A DNA stretch of 60,295 bases, taken from assembly GCA_021828155.1 (NCBI GenBank), contig JAKAST010000002.1, positions 1 to 60,295 of the forward strand. The letters run 5' to 3'. The first letter of the stretch is position 1; each line of letters starts with the position of its first letter. The translations under genes were made by a program, and so were the position numbers. Under the pieces are notes generated by a model. It was given only the letters and a program-made list of their open reading frames with translations. It did not search any database and was not told where the DNA came from. This stretch comes from Microcaldota archaeon. GTDB lineage: Archaea > Micrarchaeota > Micrarchaeia > Micrarchaeales > Micrarchaeaceae. Of this stretch, positions 118-13,667 are shown in pieces.

Positions 118-251
118 CACAAGCTCCGCCAGCAGCGCCAGCGCCCAATTTGGGCAACAGCATACTGCAGGGTAAAGAGGCTGCATGCCTGCACGGCCGT
201 GATGCACCTGTTCAGCTGCGCGGATTCCTGCCCGTCGACCGCATAAAAGTC

Positions 252-260
252 ATTAAATAC
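252..260 (+). promoter_or_regulatory. TATA-like box for the giant surface protein
   Basis: ATTAAATAC lies about 70 bases before the chosen ATG at 329, in an otherwise GC-rich spacer. The position allows a leader of about 45 nt. Similar (T/A)TTAAA boxes precede other genes in the window. Assigned by sequence only. Confidence 0.45.
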
Positions 261-328
261 CTTTCCTGACTATAGAGAAGCGTGCTGTGAGGTAAAAATA
301 CCAGGGTGCAGATCACTTGTCCAAAAGC

Positions 329-3300
329 ATGCAGTCGAAACCGCACAGGCGCGCGCAGAGCGCAGTAGAATATCTTGTGACGTACGGCTGGGCGATGCTG
401 CTTATCGGAGTAATAATATCCCTCCTTTACCTCTATCTCATAGTGCCGGGCGTAGTAGCGTCGAATTCCTGCACATTCCTTTCTGGCGCGTACTGCGTTG
501 ACCTTGTTCTCGGCGCCAACCTCACCACCCATTCGTCAGTGATGGCGCTCTTCATAACGAACACGCAGCCCTATCCCATAAAGAACCCTAAGCTTTTCGT
601 CAACATAAACAAGGTCAACTCAACCGCAATCCCGTGCAAGCCCGATTATGTCCTTGCAGGCGGCTCCATGATCTGCACGCTGCCGTTGACCCAATCAACC
701 ACGCTGGGGCAGTTCCTCGCCGGTGGTCTGTACCTTAACGCTACGTATTGCGGGCTCTCTGCAACTCCCGGCACCTGCTCGCAGGCGCCTCCTGAAGTAT
801 ACACGGGCAGCTTCGCCACCCATGCCCAGCCGCTTGTATCAACTTCATCGTCAATAACAATAAGCGCTGTGAACACAACAAACCCGGGCAATCCCGCCAA
901 CAATGCAGAGGACCCGCTCACTGCGACAGTAAGGCTCCTGGGTTATCCGCTTTCTGGCGCCACTGTAAACTTCACAGCCCGATTCCAGAGCAACGGCACC
1001 AATGCTGTGCCTCCGTATGCATTTGGCTCGCAGTACGCCACTACGGGCCCTAATGGCGTTGCGAGCGATTACATCCAGGGCACTACTGTAGGCAACGTCA
1101 TAGTAACTGCATACTATGCGGGGCTTACTGCCAACGCGCTCATAACATTCATACCCGTAACAAAGGTGACGTTCGCTGCGCCAACAGCTTCTGCGCTCCT
1201 GCACAGCTCGGCCACGCTCGCAACGATAGGCGGCACGAACTACGACTATGAGCAGCTCACTACAACGCAGTTCCTGTGGGGCTGCGGCTCCTCGCACACC
1301 TACTCGTTTGCTAGCACTCTATCAGTAAGCACGGGCACACGGCTCTCGTTCCAGCACGATGTGATAAACGGCGTGACCTATTCATCAGCGTCTGGCACAA
1401 TGGTAGTAAATTGCGCGCTCTACAACCAGACGCAGACAGCGACATACCAGACGCAGTACGAGTACCTACCGTCAGTGAGCCCATCCGGCGGCGGCACTGT
1501 GGCACCCTCGCAGGGCTGGTACGGTGTTGATTCAGGCTTCAGGATAAGCGAGACGCCATCAACTAACTACATATTCAAGAACTGGACCGGCACGGGCGCA
1601 GGCTCTTACACTGGCACCCTGCCTAACCCTGCAGTGCTCATGGGAAGCCCAGTCAACGAGACCGCGAACTACTATGCGCCTGTGCAGATAACGCTCGCAA
1701 GCCCCTCGATAGGCAGCACTACTGGAAACATACTGACTGTGGACGGCATTGGCTATACAGCATCGCAACTCCCTGCAGTAATCAACGCGAGCTACGGCTC
1801 TATAATAACATACAGCTTCGCCTCTACATTGGCAGGCGCATCTGGAATTCAGTACGTCAATCCCACAGTAAGCGGCTGCGGGGTCAGCTCCGCCAGCGGA
1901 TCATTCTCAGCAACAGGCTCATGTACTCTGAGCGCCTCATACACTACGCAGTACTACCTTACTATGGCAGCCTCGCCCAGCAGCGACGGCACTGTATCGC
2001 CGTCAAGCGGCTGGTACAACTCCGGCTCAGCAGTGACAATAAGCGAGACCCCCAGTTCTGACTACATATTCAATGACTGGACCTGCAGCGGCACGGGCTG
2101 CTACTCAGGCACTGCAACGAGCACCAGCATAACCATGAGCGCACCAATCACAGAGACTGCCAACTACTACTCTCCTCTCACAATAACGTTCGCCTCTTCC
2201 TCACTGACCGGCTCCACGGGCAATGTGGTGCAGGTCAACGGCATTAACTACACAGCGTCGCAGCTTCCCGCCAGCATATCTGTTGCACCGGGTGCCAGCG
2301 TAACGTACTCATACACCTCTACGCTTTCAGGCGGCACTGGCACGCAGTACATAACGCCAACAATAAGCGGCTGCGGCCAGAGTGCTCAGTCAGGCAGCTT
2401 CTCTGCCAGCTCAAACTGCACAGTTACAGGCACCTACACAACGCAGTACCAGCTCACCATGGCGGTATCGCCCAGTGGTGATGGCACCACAACACCCGCC
2501 ATAGGCACGTACTGGTACAACTCCGGCTCAGCAGTGACAATAAGCGAGTCGCCAACGGGCACCTACACCTTCAATGACTGGACGGGCTCGGGCACAGGCA
2601 GCTACTCAGGCACCACAGCTAGCACCAGCATAACAATGAGTGCGCCGATAACAGAGACGGCCAACTACTTCACATCCGTCACTGTGACGTTCACTTCGTC
2701 GTCGATGAGCGGCACCTCAGGCACTGTCGTTACCATTGATGGCACCAACTACGCCTATTCGCAGCTCCCTGTCAGCATAGCAGTGCCTTACGGCAATACT
2801 GTCACGTACTCGTATGCCTCGCCCGTCGCAGGCGCATCGGGCACCCAGTATGCCTATTCGTCGCTCAGCGGCTGCAGTCAATCAGCGCAGTCAGGCAGCT
2901 TCAGCGCGACCGCTGCCTGCACAGTCACTGCATCTTACACTACCCAGTATTATCTTACGATGGCCGTAAGCCCATCAGGCGGAGGCACAACATCGCCTGT
3001 AAGCGGCTGGTACAATGCAGGTTCAGGGGTCACGATAAGCGAGAGTCCTGCAACGAACTACGTATTCAATGACTGGACCTGCAGCGGCACGGGCTGCTAC
3101 TCAGGCACCAGCACCAGCGCAACAATAACAATGAACAACCCGATCACAGAGACTGCGAACTACTACTCCCCAGTCACCATTACGTTCACCTCGTCGTCGA
3201 TGTCAAGCACCTCTGGCACGGTGGTAACGGTCGACGGCGCGAATGTGGTCTATTCCAGCTTCCCGTACTCGACAGCAGTTCCATACGGCAGCACTGTCAC

Positions 3301-6300
3301 ATATTCATATACATCACCCATCGCAGGCGCATCGGGCACCCAGTATGCATACTCGTCGCTAAGCGGCTGCGGCCAGAGCACACAGAGCGGCAGCTTCAGC
3401 GCGACCGCTGCCTGCACGGTCACTGCGTCGTATAACACTCAGTACTACCTGACCATGGCCGTAAGTCCATCGGGCGGCGGAACTGTATCTCCATCAAGTG
3501 GCTGGTACAACTCTGGCACAAATGTAGGCATAAGCGAGAGTCCTGCAACGAACTACGTATTCAATGACTGGACCTGCAGCGGCACGGGCTGCTACTCAGG
3601 CACCAGCACCAGCGCAACAATAACAATGAACAACCCGATCACAGAGACTGCGAACTACTATGCACCGGTTACTGTGACGTTCACCTCGTCGTCGATGTCA
3701 AGCACCTCTGGCACGGTGGTAACGGTCGACGGCGCGAATGTGGTCTATTCCAGCTTCCCGTACTCGATAACAGTTCCATACAGCTCATCAGTTGCATACT
3801 CCTACGCTTCGCCTATCGCTGGTTCCTCAGGCACCCAGTACGTCTATTCGTCGCTCAGCGGCTGCAGTCAATCAGCGCAGTCCAACAGCTTCAGCGCGAC
3901 ATCGACCTGCACGGTAACTGCATCTTACACGACTCAGTACTATCTTACGATGGCCGTAAGCCCATCAGGCGGCGGCACTGTATCGCCAGGCAGCGGCTGG
4001 TACAACTCCGGCTCAGCGGTCACGATAAGTGAATCCCCGGCAACGAACTACGTCTTCGATGACTGGACCTGCAGCGGCACGGGCTGCTACTCCGGCACAG
4101 CAACAAGCGCAACCGCAACCATGAGCGCGCCTATCACAGAGACCGCGAACTACTATGCACCGGTTACTGTGACGTTCGCCTCATCGTCGATGAGCAGCAC
4201 CTCAGGAACTGTGGTGACTGTAGACGGCACTAACTTGGCATATTCCAGCCTCCCGTACTCAATACTTGTGCCCTATGGCAGCACAGTCACATATTCATAC
4301 GCCTCGCCTATAGGCGGTTCATCGGGCACCCAGTATGCATATTCGTCGCTCAGCGGCTGCAGTCAATCAGCGCAGTCAGGCAGCTTCAGCGCTACCTCTA
4401 CCTGCACAGTCACTGCGTCGTATAACACTCAGTACTATCTTACGATGGCCGTAAGTCCATCGGGCGGCGGCACTGTGTCGCCTAGCAACGGCTGGTACAA
4501 CTCAGGCTCGGCAGTGACGATAAGTGAAACTCCTGCAACGAACTACGTATTCGATGACTGGACAGGCACGGGCACCGGCAGCTACTCAGGCACCACGGCC
4601 AGCACTAGCATAACCATGAGCGCGCCTATCACAGAGACCGCGAACTACTACTCCCTAGTCACCATTACGTTCACCTCATCGTCGATGAGCGGCACCTCAG
4701 GCACTGTAGTCACAGTAGACGGCACCAACGTCGCCTATTCAAGCTTCCCGTACTCGATAACAGTTCCATACAGCAGCACAGTCACATATTCATATACATC
4801 ACCCATCGCAGGCGCATCGGGCACCCAGTATGCATACTCGTCGCTAAGCGGCTGCGGCCAGAGCGCGCAGTCCAATAGCTTCAGCGCGACATCAACTTGC
4901 ACAGTCACTGCCTCATACACGACTCAGTACTACCTAACGATGTCTGCGAGTCGCACACCTTCTGGTGGCGGCTCTATATCTCCATCAAGCGGCTGGTACA
5001 ATGCAGGCTCTAATGTTGGTATAAGCGCGAGCCAGGCAAATAACTACACATATACCGGCTGGAGCGGCACAGGCTCTGGCTCTTACTCTGGACTTGCGTC
5101 AAGCGCTACTGTAACAATGAGCGCACCCATAACAGAGACAGCAGGCTACATACAGAACTGGAATATAGGTCATATACCTTATCCTCTCCCGAACTCCATT
5201 CCTCCTGTACAGGGAACCGCATACGACCCAGCCAACGGCTACATGTATGCTCTGTTCGGTAACTCTTATATATATGCAATGAGCGGTACTTCGGTTGTTG
5301 CAAATATAACTTTACCATTTGCCGTTTCCTCTGTTATTTCAAGTAACTTCCCTCCATTTGTTTACGATGCAGCAGACGGCTACATGTATGGGGTATATAG
5401 CAGCGGTACGGCTACCGGTAATGGAGTATTCGCAATCAGTGGAACCAGCTTCATTGGCGTAGTCCCTGGCACAAGTTACACTAGTCCATCGTACCCCGGC
5501 ACTGGCAACACCTTTGATGCTGTTTATGATTCTTCCGACGGTTACTTATATGTGGGTAATACGAACGGCACAGTTTCTGTAATAAGTGGCATGAGCATCG
5601 TTGCGATAGTTGGCAGCGGGCTAGGCAGCGGCGCCTATCCTGCCGCTGCGGTTTACGATTCTGCAGACGGCTATGTATACATAGCATACAGCGATTATAT
5701 CTATGTCATAAGCGGCACTACTATTGTAGATACAATAACAATGCCTAATGGATACGACCCTATAACGATGGTCTTCGACCCATACAATGGATACATATAC
5801 GCCGCCAACATAAATTACGGCTACATATACGCAATTCATGGCACAACCATTGTAGGCAACTCAGGAATATCTACTGCCAGCAATCCGGAATTTCTTGGCG
5901 TAGATCCGGCTAACGGTTATCTATATGTTACCTATAATACAGGTAACAACTATCCATACGTGACTGTTATAAGTGGCAATAGCACGCTTGCCTCCTCAAT
6001 CTTTGTAGGTTATGTACCATACCAAACCATATATGATCCAAACAACGGTTATGTATTTGTTGTAACTAGTAGTGATGTCGTCACAGTCATGCAAGGCACG
6101 TCTATTATTGCTAACTTTACGGGATTTACTACCGGTGCTAGCTACGGCGGCTCAGGACCTGCATACGATCCAGCAGCCGACTCATTATATATGCCCGTCG
6201 ACTATAGTAATTACGGTATAACGATCCTAGAGGGTGGTGCTAGCACTTTTAGTACAACAAACGTAAACCTGATGCTCTACCCCTCATCTGCGACATACGA

Positions 6301-7378
6301 TCCCTCCAATGGTTATACCTATGTCCTTACTACGGACGGCGGGGCGTATGGGTACGGACCAGGCCATGCGTACGTCTTCAGTGGCACCTCAATTGTTGCT
6401 AACATAACTATATCAGGTCTGTACAGTTATAATACCACGTCTTCCAACGGTGCCGGTCAGTACTTCGGGCTGCCGCTCATCTACGATTCGAACAACGGAT
6501 ACCTCTATGGGGTTAACTCAGCGCCTTTGAGCGGTTCTAACCCTAATTATGGTGCAGTATTTGCTATAAGTGGCACCAGCTACTTGGGCACTGTGCCTGG
6601 GACGGGTCATGCCGGCCCTTACTATACCGGGGTTACGAGCATCGCAGCTTACGACTCTTCCGATGGCTACCTGTATGTGCTCAATAATAATGGCACGGTG
6701 TCCGTGATAAACGGCATGAGCATAATTGCTACCATCTCTTCGACATATCTACAAGGCTGCTATTCCATAACCTCAGGTGGCGGCTATGTGTATGTCTCTA
6801 GTAACAATTATGTGAACATAACTGTAATCAGCGGAACCAGCATAGTAGCTACCCCCTCAGGGCAATACTCCACAACCTTGCTATCTTACGATCCGTCTTA
6901 CAACTATGTGTATGCCATACCACAAAACGTTCATGGCATCGCAGCCATCATAAGTGGGACTAGCTATGTTAAGGTCATCTCAGCTTCAGGCTATGAGAGC
7001 CAAAGCGCATATGACCCAGTCAGCGGCGAGATATACTTTACTTATCTTCCAAGCCAGGCCTCTGGAGCGATAGAGGTATTCAACACAACTAGCTCTCTAG
7101 GTATTAATGTATACGGCACTGAGCCGGGGTCCCTAGCATACGGGACCGATGGCTACATGTTCAACGATTTCTACTCCACACCGGCCATCGCGTTCGTTAA
7201 TGCGTTTGGTGCGCTGCCATCAGGCTATCAGGGCATAAACGGCAGGATATTTTTAAACGAGTGGAGTGGCTCCAATCCGTCCAGCATAGGGTATTCACCG
7301 TCGGATAATTGTATATACTACCCCTTGTGGGATACTTCTTCAGGTGGCAACGGTGTTTCCATAATTTGCCTTACATGA
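329..7378 (+). CDS. giant modular surface protein: class III signal peptide, InlB-type repeats, YVTN-like beta-propeller
   Basis: A 2349-residue secreted or pilin-anchored surface protein. The N-terminus has a basic n-region, then RA/QSAVEYLVTYGWAML and a hydrophobic helix, the form of an archaeal class III (type IV pilin-like) signal peptide cut by a prepilin peptidase before Q. An upstream TTG at 317 would add four residues. After a pilin-like head come a Big_1-like Ig domain (about residues 180-270), eight tandem modules of about 165 residues (about 280-1610), each ending in an InlB B-repeat-like unit (SPSGGGTVSPSSGWYN ... FNDWT ... ITETANYY), and about 16 propeller blades with YDPxxGYxY and ISGTSIVA motifs (about 1630-2350). 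No C-terminal membrane segment or sorting signal is visible. The repeats are GC-rich; the propeller part is visibly AT-richer, suggesting a different origin. Likely role: adhesion or cell-cell contact, inferred from domains only. Confidence 0.9.
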   Translation: MQSKPHRRAQSAVEYLVTYGWAMLLIGVIISLLYLYLIVPGVVASNSCTFLSGAYCVDLVLGANLTTHSSVMALFITNTQPYPIKNPKLFVNINKVNSTAIPCKPDYVLAGGSMICTLPLTQSTTLGQFLAGGLYLNATYCGLSATPGTCSQAPPEVYTGSFATHAQPLVSTSSSITISAVNTTNPGNPANNAEDPLTATVRLLGYPLSGATVNFTARFQSNGTNAVPPYAFGSQYATTGPNGVASDYIQGTTVGNVIVTAYYAGLTANALITFIPVTKVTFAAPTASALLHSSATLATIGGTNYDYEQLTTTQFLWGCGSSHTYSFASTLSVSTGTRLSFQHDVINGVTYSSASGTMVVNCALYNQTQTATYQTQYEYLPSVSPSGGGTVAPSQGWYGVDSGFRISETPSTNYIFKNWTGTGAGSYTGTLPNPAVLMGSPVNETANYYAPVQITLASPSIGSTTGNILTVDGIGYTASQLPAVINASYGSIITYSFASTLAGASGIQYVNPTVSGCGVSSASGSFSATGSCTLSASYTTQYYLTMAASPSSDGTVSPSSGWYNSGSAVTISETPSSDYIFNDWTCSGTGCYSGTATSTSITMSAPITETANYYSPLTITFASSSLTGSTGNVVQVNGINYTASQLPASISVAPGASVTYSYTSTLSGGTGTQYITPTISGCGQSAQSGSFSASSNCTVTGTYTTQYQLTMAVSPSGDGTTTPAIGTYWYNSGSAVTISESPTGTYTFNDWTGSGTGSYSGTTASTSITMSAPITETANYFTSVTVTFTSSSMSGTSGTVVTIDGTNYAYSQLPVSIAVPYGNTVTYSYASPVAGASGTQYAYSSLSGCSQSAQSGSFSATAACTVTASYTTQYYLTMAVSPSGGGTTSPVSGWYNAGSGVTISESPATNYVFNDWTCSGTGCYSGTSTSATITMNNPITETANYYSPVTITFTSSSMSSTSGTVVTVDGANVVYSSFPYSTAVPYGSTVTYSYTSPIAGASGTQYAYSSLSGCGQSTQSGSFSATAACTVTASYNTQYYLTMAVSPSGGGTVSPSSGWYNSGTNVGISESPATNYVFNDWTCSGTGCYSGTSTSATITMNNPITETANYYAPVTVTFTSSSMSSTSGTVVTVDGANVVYSSFPYSITVPYSSSVAYSYASPIAGSSGTQYVYSSLSGCSQSAQSNSFSATSTCTVTASYTTQYYLTMAVSPSGGGTVSPGSGWYNSGSAVTISESPATNYVFDDWTCSGTGCYSGTATSATATMSAPITETANYYAPVTVTFASSSMSSTSGTVVTVDGTNLAYSSLPYSILVPYGSTVTYSYASPIGGSSGTQYAYSSLSGCSQSAQSGSFSATSTCTVTASYNTQYYLTMAVSPSGGGTVSPSNGWYNSGSAVTISETPATNYVFDDWTGTGTGSYSGTTASTSITMSAPITETANYYSLVTITFTSSSMSGTSGTVVTVDGTNVAYSSFPYSITVPYSSTVTYSYTSPIAGASGTQYAYSSLSGCGQSAQSNSFSATSTCTVTASYTTQYYLTMSASRTPSGGGSISPSSGWYNAGSNVGISASQANNYTYTGWSGTGSGSYSGLASSATVTMSAPITETAGYIQNWNIGHIPYPLPNSIPPVQGTAYDPANGYMYALFGNSYIYAMSGTSVVANITLPFAVSSVISSNFPPFVYDAADGYMYGVYSSGTATGNGVFAISGTSFIGVVPGTSYTSPSYPGTGNTFDAVYDSSDGYLYVGNTNGTVSVISGMSIVAIVGSGLGSGAYPAAAVYDSADGYVYIAYSDYIYVISGTTIVDTITMPNGYDPITMVFDPYNGYIYAANINYGYIYAIHGTTIVGNSGISTASNPEFLGVDPANGYLYVTYNTGNNYPYVTVISGNSTLASSIFVGYVPYQTIYDPNNGYVFVVTSSDVVTVMQGTSIIANFTGFTTGASYGGSGPAYDPAADSLYMPVDYSNYGITILEGGASTFSTTNVNLMLYPSSATYDPSNGYTYVLTTDGGAYGYGPGHAYVFSGTSIVANITISGLYSYNTTSSNGAGQYFGLPLIYDSNNGYLYGVNSAPLSGSNPNYGAVFAISGTSYLGTVPGTGHAGPYYTGVTSIAAYDSSDGYLYVLNNNGTVSVINGMSIIATISSTYLQGCYSITSGGGYVYVSSNNYVNITVISGTSIVATPSGQYSTTLLSYDPSYNYVYAIPQNVHGIAAIISGTSYVKVISASGYESQSAYDPVSGEIYFTYLPSQASGAIEVFNTTSSLGINVYGTEPGSLAYGTDGYMFNDFYSTPAIAFVNAFGALPSGYQGINGRIFLNEWSGSNPSSIGYSPSDNCIYYPLWDTSSGGNGVSIICLT
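1160..5150 (+). repeat. eight tandem about 500-bp coding repeats in the surface protein gene
   Basis: Each unit encodes VTxTFxSSSMSxTSGTVVTVDG, a Ser/Tyr-rich stretch, a Cys pair (SGCxQS ... CTVTASY) and the B-repeat-like segment. Units 5 and 6 share a block of more than 100 bases that looks identical (about 3050-3170 and 3541-3661), so recent recombination or gene conversion is likely. Units 1 and 2 are the most diverged. Copy-number variation and assembly collapse are both plausible here. Confidence 0.9.
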
Positions 7379-7637
7379 ATGCACATTCTAGAATACATCC
7401 ACAATTTCATGTATGCTATGTCAATATCTTAAAGAATTCTCGGCTTCGTCGGTAGTTGACGCATAATTAGGGCAATAGTTTTTCTGTCTTGTTCTCGTTA
7501 TAATCGTTAACGGCAGCGCCATCTATACACTCACCTAGTTCCTGGCGATCAGGCTTTTCAGCGCCGGCGATTTTATCTTGATGAGGTTCTTTCGGTAAGG
7601 AATTCGACTGCCGTGCCTACCGCATTATTGAGCTCGC

Positions 7638-7880
7638 TCTCAAGCTCCCTCAGCCACAGTCGTCACGGTCGACGGCACCAACATTGTCTATTCCAGCCTC
7701 CCGTACTCGATACTGGTGCCATACGGCAGCACAGTCACATACTCATACGCCTCGCCGATAGGAAGTTCCTCAGGCACCCAGTACGTCTATTCGTCGCTCA
7801 GCGGCTGCAGTCAATCAGCGCAGTCCAACAGCTTCAGCGCGACATCGACATGCACGATCGATGCCGAGTATACGCCGTGA
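7638..7880 (+). pseudogene. stranded, frameshifted copy of one surface-protein repeat, ending in its own stop
   Basis: From 7659 the frame reads VVTVDGTNIVYSSLPYS, continues through the SGCSQSAQ segment and ends CTIDAEYTP with TGA at 7878-7880. It closely matches the surface-protein modules at DNA level. Just upstream the match continues as SSLSSSLS in another frame, so there is a one-base frameshift, and no start is available. The 260 bases between the intact gene and this fragment hold no recognisable gene. It could be the former 3' end of the surface gene, displaced when the propeller part was acquired, or a duplicated end. No function is expected. Confidence 0.75.
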
Positions 7881-7936
7881 AGTAAAGGCAAACCTTAAAA
7901 GCCTTGCCAGAGCTGTAAATGCGATGGAGTGAGATT

Positions 7937-8326
7937 ATGGCAAGGAGCGCAATGAGCAAGAAAACAAACCCCGGCGTGTTCGCGCTGGAATTCGTGGGCA
8001 GCCTGTTCTACCTGTTCCTGGTATACCTGATGGGCCTCGACAAGATGCCCGTCAGCGTGGTATTCAGTGGCACAGGCTCGTTCTGGCTGCCTGTATTCGC
8101 TGGCGTGTCAATACTCGCTGCGATAGCGCTGTTCGTATTCAGCTTCACGTATTTGGGCGAGCCCAAGATACTTGCCGGAGAGCGCACCAAGAACATGGGG
8201 CTGCAGCTGGCAATGGTGCTGGGCATAACCTTCTTCGCCCTTACTATAGGCACGCAGTACTTCTTCGTTGCCCTGATAGGGTTCATACTGGCCCTGATAG
8301 GGGGCATAATGGGCTACAGGCTCTGA
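7937..8326 (+). CDS. small four-helix membrane protein
   Basis: 129 residues with about four hydrophobic segments: VFALEFVGSLFYLFLVYLMG (about 14-33), FWLPVFAGVSILAAIALFVF (about 49-68), and two near the C-terminus (about 90-108 and 110-127). A basic N-terminus suggests a cytoplasmic start. The ATG at 7937 is chosen because GGAGTGAG lies 5-12 bases upstream; an ATG at 7919 would add six residues but lacks a ribosome site. A strong hairpin follows directly after the stop. No family is recognised; function unknown. Confidence 0.75.
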   Translation: MARSAMSKKTNPGVFALEFVGSLFYLFLVYLMGLDKMPVSVVFSGTGSFWLPVFAGVSILAAIALFVFSFTYLGEPKILAGERTKNMGLQLAMVLGITFFALTIGTQYFFVALIGFILALIGGIMGYRL

Positions 8327-8334
8327 ATATGCAG

Positions 8335-8370
8335 GCCCTGCCCTTGGGCAGGGCGTTCTCTTTCTCTCCA
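8335..8370. terminator. strong hairpin with pyrimidine tract between convergent genes
   Basis: GCCCTGCCC, a TT loop and GGGCAGGGC form a perfect 9-bp stem, followed by a T/C-rich run (GTTCTCTTTCTCTCC). It lies between the ends of two convergent genes and could end transcription of the rightward one. Confidence 0.7.
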
Positions 8371-10993: not shown

Positions 10994-11233
10994 ATGATAA
11001 ACGCGATAATAGCCGTGCTCGACGAGCAGGAGCTGCTCGTAATACCGAACACGGATGTGCCGCTTGCGGAGCTAGTGGGCAGGAAGGCGCGCTACGTTGA
11101 CAAGGAGGAGAAGGCCTGGCTCGGCAGGGTCGACCGCGTGGCGGAATCGATGCTCTGCGTGAAGCTCGACAGGTGGCCGAGCGGTCTGGGCCAGGGCCAG
11201 ATAATAGAGATATACGAAGAGGGCGACGAATAA
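10994..11233 (+). CDS. small beta-rich protein, function unknown
   Basis: 79 residues starting MINAIIAVLDEQELLVIP. ATG 10994 is preferred over an upstream in-frame ATG at 10928 because the latter lies before the TATA box. The second half (GRKARYVDKEEKAWLGRV ... GQIIEIYEEGDE) alternates hydrophobic and charged residues as in small SH3- or OB-like barrels; that fold guess is inference. It lies 17 bases before the sulfatase-fold gene and is probably co-transcribed with it and the glycosyltransferase. Confidence 0.65.
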   Translation: MINAIIAVLDEQELLVIPNTDVPLAELVGRKARYVDKEEKAWLGRVDRVAESMLCVKLDRWPSGLGQGQIIEIYEEGDE

Positions 11234-11250
11234 ACAGAGCGGGTGGTTCA

Positions 11251-12462
11251 GTGCCCCAGAAGAACAGTAAGCCCAACATCACGATAATAGTGCTCGACTC
11301 GCTCAGGCTCGACGAGTTCAAGGCTCTCAAAAGCGAATCCGACTTAGAGGGTTTCGCAGTCACTGATAAGTGCATCGCACCCTCGCCGTGGACGCTGCCG
11401 TCGCACGCCTCGCTCTTCACGGGCATGTACCCAAGCGAGCACGGCGCGCACGAGACCAAGCGCATCAAGGTATTCGACATAGACGAGATAAAGCTGAGGC
11501 GCAGGACATTCGTGAGCGACCTGAATGACATAGGCTACAAGACCTATGCGATATCAGCCAATCCCTACGTGCACCCCGTATACGGCTTCAGCGAGTTCGA
11601 CTACTTCAAGGAGGAATCCTATTACACTGACCTTGCGGGGCACGCGATAGAGGTGCCGGCGAGGCTCAAGCCATTGCTTGCGAAGTACAGGGAGCGATAT
11701 GGCGGCAATCCCTTCAAGATAGCCCTTGCAATAAGGGATGACCCTGCGCTCATGGGCGAGATTGAGCTCTCAGACTGGTCTGCCACTGCCTACCTCACGC
11801 TGAGGAACCTTCTGAAGAAGGTGCGCGCCAAGATGATAGAGGGCTGGCCGCTCGAGAAGGGCGGCAAGAACACGCTTAGGGCTGTGCGCGAAACGATTTT
11901 CAGGAGGCCGTTCTTCCTGTTCATAAACCTCATGGAGCCCCACGACCCGTACATGTCGGGCAAGGGCAACGACATGAAGTGGTATGCCTCTTTTCTCAAG
12001 GAAGAGCCCAGCAAAGAGCTCGTTGGAAAGTGGAAGAGCCTCTACAGCACGGCCTCCGCAAGGGGCTACAGGTACGCGCTTGGCATAATAGCGAGCCTCA
12101 GGGAGAGGTACGGCGACGACCAGCTTATAATTCTCACGTCCGACCACGGCCAGGCGTTCGGGGAGCACGGCTTCATCTGCCACGGCAGCGAGCTCTACGA
12201 CGAGCTGGTCAGGGTGCCGTTTGCAGTCATGCTGCCGAGAGGGTTTGCCACCAGCAAGGGCCATGGCAGGGCCTCGCTGGTCAATGTCAGGCCCTTCATC
12301 GAGGCAGTGCTCGCGGGCGACCGCAACGCCATGGATAAACTTTTCAGCAGGCGCGTCTACGCCGAGAGCTTCGGCGTTCCGGGCGATTTCATAGCTGTCA
12401 AGGGCATAGATGTCAAGAAGCTCAAGAGGTCTGACAGGCGGCAGAGGAGAGCGTTTCAATGA
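11251..12462 (+). CDS. sulfatase/alkaline phosphatase superfamily enzyme with Thr in the nucleophile position
   Basis: 403 residues of the PF00884-type fold. GTG at 11251 is chosen for GGTGGTT just upstream; the longer frame overlaps the preceding gene. Seen: VLDSLR near the N-terminus (first metal Asp), PSPWTLPSHASLFTG around residue 50 where sulfatases have CxPSR, EPHDPY, and TSDHGQAFGEHG (metal Asp/His) near residue 300. The residue aligned with the formylglycine Cys/Ser is Thr, as in phosphoethanolamine and phosphoglycerol transferases, so a phospho-group transferase or hydrolase acting on glycans or lipids is as likely as a true sulfatase. No signal peptide, so cytoplasmic or peripheral. 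It overlaps the GT4 gene by 4 bases (ATGA), indicating an operon. Confidence 0.85.
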   Translation: MPQKNSKPNITIIVLDSLRLDEFKALKSESDLEGFAVTDKCIAPSPWTLPSHASLFTGMYPSEHGAHETKRIKVFDIDEIKLRRRTFVSDLNDIGYKTYAISANPYVHPVYGFSEFDYFKEESYYTDLAGHAIEVPARLKPLLAKYRERYGGNPFKIALAIRDDPALMGEIELSDWSATAYLTLRNLLKKVRAKMIEGWPLEKGGKNTLRAVRETIFRRPFFLFINLMEPHDPYMSGKGNDMKWYASFLKEEPSKELVGKWKSLYSTASARGYRYALGIIASLRERYGDDQLIILTSDHGQAFGEHGFICHGSELYDELVRVPFAVMLPRGFATSKGHGRASLVNVRPFIEAVLAGDRNAMDKLFSRRVYAESFGVPGDFIAVKGIDVKKLKRSDRRQRRAFQ

Positions 12463-13667
12463 CTAGGCTGCTGCTCATGGAATCCGGCTCGTTCAGCACA
12501 AGAGGGGGCGGCAGCGCAAAGGACACGTACCAGCTCTACAGGCATCTTCGCGAAAAGGCAGGGTACAGCATAGACGTATTCGCGGACTTCGAGCCGTTCG
12601 AGAAGGGCATAGAACACATAGGGCTGGAGAAGCTGCTCGGAAGCGATTACGACATAATCCTGATGAACTCGATACGCGACGCCATTGTCGTGGAAAGGTA
12701 TGTGAGGCTGCACGGGCGCTCCGCTAAGATCCTTTACATAGACAGGGTCGCCGCGGTAACGCACTACTATAGCTCGCCCTCACGGCGCCTCTTCTCAAGG
12801 GTCATGCGCCCCGCCGGCGACCTGGCAGGCGTGGAAAGGCATGTGAACAGCATTACGCGCGCAACGAATGCGCAGATGTTCAAGTCAATCAGGGACTTCG
12901 GCGCGAAGTCTTACGCGCTCAGCCTGCTGGCGGATATGCGTTCCTGGCTTGACTGCTATGTCGGCATAAACGCCGAGATGGCATCGCAAGCGAAGCGCTA
13001 CTTCTCCGGGCGCACGCGCATAGTGTACATACCAATAGCGCCGCACGACCAGTTCGTGGTCAGGCATGAGCGGAAGAGCGGCGCCGCAATAGCCGTGGGA
13101 AGGCTGGAGGAGTCCCAGAAGAAATTCTCGTTCCTGCTCAAAGGGCTGCGGCGCGTTCTCGCTCTGCATCCGGAGCTCGCTGGCAGGGAGCTCGTCAGGG
13201 TGTGCGGCACCGGCCCGGACAGCGCCACCTACTCTGCCATAACTGCGAGACTTGGCATAAAGCGCAATGTGCACTTCATGGGCTACGTGCCTGAGGACAA
13301 ACTGGTAAGGCAGTACAACGCAAGCTCTTTCATGGTGTCTACGTCGGAATGGGAGGGGCTGAGCCACACGTTCATGGAGGCGATGGCATGCGGCATACCT
13401 GTGCTGGCAAACAGCAAAAACAACTCCATAATCTCTTACAGGCCGGTGAGGCGCATAGTGATGGAGGGCCGCAACGGCATGGTCTACAGGTACGGCGATG
13501 TGGACGACTTTGCAGAGAAGTTTTACAGGTTGTACTCCAACCCCAAGCTCTGCGCTGCCCTTGGCAGGCGCGCAAACATTTATGTGCGGCGCACGTTCAG
13601 CAGGGAAAGGATGCTGGCAAAGTACGACTCGCTTCTTAGGTCCCTGGGGCGCAGCCCGCCTAAATAG
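12459..13667 (+). CDS. glycosyltransferase family 4
   Basis: 402 residues. N-terminal half resembles a GT-B acceptor domain (residues 1-190), starting with GSFSTRGGGSAKDTYQLYRHL. The C-terminal donor domain has AIAVGRLEESQKKFSFLLKG, the helix CGTGPDSATYSAITARL, VHFMGYVPEDKL and the retaining-GT signature STSEWEGLSHTFMEAMACG with the conserved Glu (EGLSHTFMEA). It likely transfers a sugar from a nucleotide-sugar to a surface glycan or lipid carrier at the inner membrane face. It is translationally coupled to the sulfatase-fold gene by ATGA. Substrate unknown. Confidence 0.92.
   Translation: MTRLLLMESGSFSTRGGGSAKDTYQLYRHLREKAGYSIDVFADFEPFEKGIEHIGLEKLLGSDYDIILMNSIRDAIVVERYVRLHGRSAKILYIDRVAAVTHYYSSPSRRLFSRVMRPAGDLAGVERHVNSITRATNAQMFKSIRDFGAKSYALSLLADMRSWLDCYVGINAEMASQAKRYFSGRTRIVYIPIAPHDQFVVRHERKSGAAIAVGRLEESQKKFSFLLKGLRRVLALHPELAGRELVRVCGTGPDSATYSAITARLGIKRNVHFMGYVPEDKLVRQYNASSFMVSTSEWEGLSHTFMEAMACGIPVLANSKNNSIISYRPVRRIVMEGRNGMVYRYGDVDDFAEKFYRLYSNPKLCAALGRRANIYVRRTFSRERMLAKYDSLLRSLGRSPPK

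Follow-up and report, generated by a model that had tools for sequence, protein, structure and literature searches.

Surface proteins with B-repeats of the InlB type (PF18998, Flg_new_2; Listeria InlB, PDB 2y5p) are among the closest described counterparts of the protein analysed here, which is likewise of surface type and carries one PF18998 unit per module in a tandem array. It differs from InlB in that the B-repeat alternates with a 93-aa beta-sandwich, in its pilin-type N-terminus and in being archaeal, and leucine-rich repeats of the internalin (InlB) type were not found by Pfam in the protein. Propeller repeats on secreted archaeal proteins (Methanosarcina, PDB 1l0q; Mancarchaeum Mia14) are a second likeness, whereas here the propellers cap a stalk of B-repeats that follows a pilin-type signal, and a congener has a Gly-rich domain instead. 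The propeller surface proteins of Mancarchaeum Mia14 were proposed to act in cell contact (PMC5498576), and for A_DKE, filamentous structures have been described between its cells and those of the host (PMC8975820), a member of the Thermoplasmatales. Beta-sandwich stalk domains of Gram-positive bacteria (PitA, Spy0125, the Mobiluncus adhesin 5u5o) are the nearest structures of the module, with Z of 6–8, a middling score that may reflect common arrangement only, but identity to them is about 10% and disulfides are presumed here.

In shufflon PilV tips and in the polymorphic C-termini of Rhs and CdiA proteins, a constant N-terminal part is combined with an exchangeable C-terminus, and displaced orphan tips are found. 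The present locus resembles these systems in its constant N-terminal part, its apparently exchangeable C-terminal end and a nearby silent, 5′-truncated tip that shares the joint sequence. It differs in that the joint probably falls within one of the repeated stalk modules, no toxin/immunity pair was seen, the organism is archaeal, and switching is putative.

Gene layout and pilin-type N-terminus

The window, i.e. the whole stretch of 60,295 nucleotides that was analysed, comprises the first 60 kb of the 83-kb contig C12 of a 590-kb genome (20 contigs, 85% complete). The genome is of Micrarchaeota type (DPANN), and the lineage is a host-dependent one. Strong named relatives of the protein's N-terminal block were nearly all labelled Micrarchaeota, including the cultured Ca. 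Micrarchaeum A_DKE, and some were filed under other bin labels, e.g. Marsarchaeota. The gene is a single frame of 2353 codons (window 317–7378, plus strand), and its 2353-aa product, far larger than ordinary pilins, consists, from N- to C-terminus, of a basic stretch, a pilin-type segment, a Cys-containing head, a Big_1-like domain, eight modules and a propeller-like tip (Table 1). The original prediction of an eight-module surface-type protein was confirmed as an observation, with one frame and a tandem array of 495 nt period, while its interpretation was partly supported overall. Judged from the genes, the product is best read as a long pilin-anchored surface protein. Sulfatase-like and glycosyltransferase genes, possibly for surface glycans, lie near the stalk gene (window 11173–13664).

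Table 1 Features of the stalk locus (window coordinates)
Feature	Position	Strand	Remark
Upstream region conserved with the G001 orthologue, includes ATTAAATAC	242–316	+	blastn homology to G001 starts at 242
Pilin-type signal and hydrophobic segment, SKPHRRA/QSAVEYLVTYGWAMLLIGVIISLLYLYLIV	317–460	+	motif invariant in ten relatives
Conserved Cys-containing pilin head domain	461–862	+	alignment A1, invariant Cys
Big_1-like Ig domain	863–1153	+	PF02369, E = 2.6e-6, under gathering score
Module 1, sole module in most family members	1178–1672	+	
Module 2, tree partner of G001 module 2	1673–2167	+	
Module 3, tree partner of G001 module 3	2168–2668	+	
Module 4; 3035–3163 identical to 3530–3658	2669–3163	+	
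Module 5, mosaic: 5′ part as module 6, middle as module 8, 3′ part as module 4	3164–3658	+	exact tracts
Module 6, modelled with AlphaFold2	3659–4153	+	
Module 7	4154–4648	+	
Module 8, candidate recombination joint	4649–5149	+	halves differ in similarity to other modules
C-terminal tip, two tandem propeller-like repeats of ~370 aa each	5150–7375	+	halves 37% identical; weak profile/PDB matches
HicB-like gene, 3′ fragment	7530–7652	−	88.7% identical to flank of G001 silent cassette
Orphan module fragment outside the gene, 222 nt	7656–7877	+	82% to modules 6 and 7
Conserved small membrane protein, MARSAMSKKTNPG..., downstream border of variable zone	7919–8326	+	syntenic in G001

Upstream of the frame, ATTAAATAC is a possible archaeal TATA box, read by eye. 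The QSAVEY motif is visible by eye in the window protein, and in the alignment the pattern Q-S-A-x-E-Y-x-x-T-Y-G-W-A was unvarying across ten relatives. The class III signal that had been proposed for this segment held in part: the pilin-like N-terminus with its QSAxEY motif stands, and a prepilin peptidase family is present in the genome (Peptidase_A24, PF01478, above cut-off, same contig, C12:62846–63145), but the Pfam class III signal model PF04021, only 27 positions long, gave no match anywhere in the genome at E ≤ 1, though the same search does match Methanocaldococcus. The label therefore follows from the QSAxEY motif only. A secretion ATPase (PF00437) was found above cut-off on contig C8, and with both the peptidase and the ATPase encoded, surface export via the pilin route is plausible. 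In three paralogue pairs (L057/L058, L038/L039, L040/L041), high identity sets in near the pilin motif, downstream of the start codon, and the basic leaders differ. No Pfam family was matched by the head domain. The Big_1-like domain scored 27.9 bits against the 34.9 needed for PF02369 in the window, and a relative in genome G006 scored 40.8 bits, above the threshold.

Module fold and recombination within the array

The array spans 1178–5149, each module having 165 or 167 aa. In agreement with the predicted B-repeat-like units, the PF18998 profile matched eight stretches (E = 4.6e-44) at 148.7 bits versus a gathering score of 23.6. Composition was also as expected for Ser/Tyr-rich repeats, with 20% Ser and 8% Tyr, as well as 17% Thr, and Lys plus Arg make up 4 of the 1324 residues. 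One module consists of a Ser/Thr/Tyr-rich beta-sandwich of about 93 residues followed by a B-repeat of about 72, and the AlphaFold2 model of module 6 (59-module alignment) gave this two-domain beta fold at a mean pLDDT of 96.3, with the sandwich at residues 1–93 and the B-repeat at 94–165. Gram-positive pilin and adhesin stalk domains were the closest structures to the model, at middling Z values of up to 8.2; Foldseek with the module returned nothing at E ≤ 0.001, the sequence search of the PDB just a chance-level match to CdiA (E 0.53), and no curated family was matched above cut-off by the first half of the module.

Cys69 and Cys84 are unvarying in modules 2–8 of the window and of the congener G001, so that the Cys pair originally assigned to every module holds for these seven and not for module 1, which is without Cys at those positions. 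A second pair (138/143, inside the B-repeat) is all-or-none, 21 of 59 modules having both, 38 neither and none a single one. The retention of the first pair and the all-or-none occurrence of the second suggest that modules with both pairs have two disulfides each.

Most family members carry one full module, the window protein and G001 carry eight and G006 six; the long array is therefore seen as an expansion in part of the family. Of 162 genomes examined from the order, 130 have PF18998, so the B-repeat, though best known from bacteria, is not unusual here; a rare bacterial import was rejected on the same count.

Whole modules are not identical, with 72–82% DNA identity within modules 4–8 and 50–66% when module 1, 2 or 3 is compared with any other. 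Identical DNA blocks in modules 5 and 6, as noted before, were found to comprise 91 nt exactly (3182–3272 = 3677–3767); modules 4 and 5 share more, 129 nt exactly (coordinates in Table 1), and modules 5 and 8 share 84 nt (3296–3379 = 4781–4864). Each of the three tracts had p ≤ 0.0005 in a column permutation over all pairs; the exact-tract permutation test was weak in G001. In the codon tree, modules 2 and 3 of the window each join their positional counterpart in G001, and window modules 4–8 group together, apart from modules 4–8 of G001. Synonymous divergence was 0.74 between window modules 5 and 6 and 0.65 between 6 and 7, below the values between the two species for the same gene (dS 0.89 for pilin plus Ig domain, 1.07 for modules 1–3). 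From the module tree, the low dS between neighbours and the exact tracts, gene conversion or unequal exchange among modules after the species split is well supported, and the homogenisation that had been proposed is upheld as the product of recombination.

The further expectation that the array varies in length by recombination was not borne out: G001 also has eight modules, no length polymorphism was seen between the congeners, and different copy numbers occur only in more distant relatives. What varies more tellingly than array length is the C-terminal tip.

Variable tip and silent cassette

The tip forms a 742-aa end whose two-fold internal repeat carries DPxNGYxY motifs, typical of YVTN-like propellers. 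The original assignment as a propeller is supported to the level of C-terminal propeller-like repeats, though profile and PDB matches lie below curated thresholds: TIGR03866 matched at E = 1.2e-7, below its cut-off, the Methanosarcina surface-layer propeller 1l0q weakly at E = 0.0077, and no curated family was assigned above cut-off. A single-sequence structure model of the propeller was discarded (pLDDT 39). GC3 was 0.47 in the window tip versus 0.63–0.66 in the stalk, and 0.39 in the G001 tip versus 0.73 in its stalk.

Compared with G001, the closest sequenced relative, window 242–5024 aligns to 229471–234259, no further alignment being found until 7530, and the downstream flanks (7887–8363, then 9613 onward) are syntenic. 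DNA homology inside the gene thus stops at 5024, within module 8, and between syntenic flanks the stalk is followed by propellers in the window and by a Gly-rich tail in G001, where the window tip had no match. In window module 8, the 5′ half is 86% identical to module 5 and the B-repeat half 60–69% to all other modules; since the B-repeat half is an outlier and the first half ordinary, the joint between stalk and tip probably lies inside this module. The MARSAMSKK gene in the downstream flank has a 21-nt tandem repeat in two copies (window 8270–8312).

Past the propeller stop, after 152 nt, there follows a 123-nt fragment, recognised as HicB-like by eye and without a profile, whose orientation relative to the tip stop is the same as in G001, and then the orphan module fragment, which shares an exact stretch of 85 nt with module 6. 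G001 has the complete HicB-like frame and the window only a 3′ piece of it, for which reason the window arrangement is taken as derived. We take the window tip and its flank to have been imported from a cassette-like site, an older module stub being left behind.

The silent cassette of G001 (L056 17317–18666, minus strand) lies 4.6 kb past the stop of the expressed gene and corresponds to the last three quarters of module 8 joined to a different Gly-rich tail. It is inverted, promoterless and without an upstream pilin signal, it adjoins a tyrosine recombinase gene, and it has an uninterrupted frame of over 420 codons; 380 nt of it recur as an inverted repeat in module 8 of the expressed gene. 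The beta-sandwich halves of the cassette and of expressed module 8 are 92% identical, whereas expressed module 8 reaches at most 76% with any other G001 module, and dN/dS of the module part against module 8 is about 0.2. One cassette only, in one species, was found, and none in the window's own 85%-complete assembly. Among module frames without a recognised pilin motif in the other genomes there was no separate cassette; these were run-offs at contig ends, cases in which the signal had been missed by the first pattern, or the 3′ part of an interrupted A_DKE copy, and one such frame (L050, 230 aa) overlapped with a longer one that has the pilin signal.

In the closed A_DKE genome, two paralogues share 95.3% DNA identity over 1647 bp, a stretch that starts at the pilin motif and takes in module 1 and a Ser/Thr linker, and then continue into unrelated tips, which gave no BLASTP match to each other at E 10. 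The second paralogue (L058, C1:454267–455499) has an in-frame TGA in module 1, with an open frame beyond it and a Hint-like end. Tips of other relatives are Gly-rich tails, or Hint-like or Kelch-like domains below cut-off; degenerate Hint/intein-like domains (PF14890, PF07591, below cut-off) form the C-termini of L060, L061 and L043.

Between G034 (C3, C8, C9) and G011:C1, homology jumps between paralogous loci inside the module array, with more than 20 kb of synteny downstream, the two loci being inverted and about 445 kb apart in G011. The partner contigs of G034 end at exact repeats of 100–120 nt, for which reason this case, possibly a real inversion or else a misassembly, was not counted as a second tip exchange.

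Interpretation and alternatives

With a probability of about 0.6, we read the gene as encoding a pilin-anchored surface stalk whose module recombination helps to exchange the tip. Once processed by the prepilin peptidase, the protein would be anchored or assembled on the cell surface; its modules, stitched by disulfides, would serve as a spacer and keep the tip at a distance from the cell, and the tip, here a propeller pair, would bind a partner cell or matrix. Through the homology of the modules, crossovers within or close to module 8 would place new tips on the stalk, and the recombination that exchanges tips would also homogenise the modules. Host attachment via the tip is what we infer from this arrangement, and a role of module recombination in tip exchange is supported by the anatomy of the locus.

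The gene may instead encode an ordinary surface or S-layer-associated spacer under concerted evolution, with a single old replacement of its end and with the G001 cassette as a decaying, functionless duplicate. Concerted evolution alone accounts for the module tree and the exact tracts, just two congeners were compared, the cassette is without start and signal, and the window orphan is a stub without apparent function. This reading is nevertheless doubtful, as the cassette has kept a long open frame, a low dN/dS and a sandwich half close to module 8, and as closed A_DKE repeats the pattern of a conserved block with unrelated tips in one genome.

Tip exchange as a programmed process is speculation. 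A tyrosine recombinase gene (PF00589, E = 1.5e-15) directly adjoins the inverted G001 cassette with its stretch shared with module 8, and such an enzyme might invert or transfer tips as in a shufflon and so produce host-directed phase or antigenic variation. The gene lies outside the invertible segment, however, and the two module-8 arms in G001 are only 84% alike, so that no recent switch took place there. The combination of recombinase and inverted silent tip at the locus was seen in G001 and not in the window genome, from which, as assembled, the recombinase is absent; being present in 14 of 60 genomes searched, thus patchy in relatives, it may be an unrelated mobile gene. The literature searched held nothing relevant about invertible tips or silent cassettes of pilins, whether for archaea at large or for DPANN. 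We consider it unlikely that a DPANN archaeon switches its tip from a silent inverted store with a dedicated recombinase, as phase variation toward an archaeal host, and shufflon-like switching as an account of the present locus very unlikely. G001 has three copies of the MARSAMSKK gene's 5′ end (L056 12782–12879, 14723–14820 and 16417–16514), which border two archaeal ATPase genes (PF01637/DUF234; AAA_14/DUF4143), an arrangement that looks like an insertion with duplicated flanking sequence.

That the module mosaic and/or the tip joint in the window are short-read assembly artefacts is highly improbable: identical tracts of 84–129 nt can confuse short-read assembly, the longest being as long as a typical largest k-mer, and in G034 the partners of the contig with the apparent tip exchange end at exact repeats, but G001 also has eight modules, the joint of module 8 and tip has no exact repeat of at least 25 nt downstream of 4864, and the synteny with G001 that flanks the tip on either side within one contig argues against a chimera.

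The stalk gene with its putatively exchangeable tip, as preferred here, bears on the open question of host choice and attachment in DPANN archaea. A stalk family that is widespread in the order, with a constant pilin-type base, recombining modules and variable tips, provides concrete candidate genes and a concrete test, namely whether tips track hosts, and the findings suggest that a repeat array may double as a recombination handle in an archaeon.
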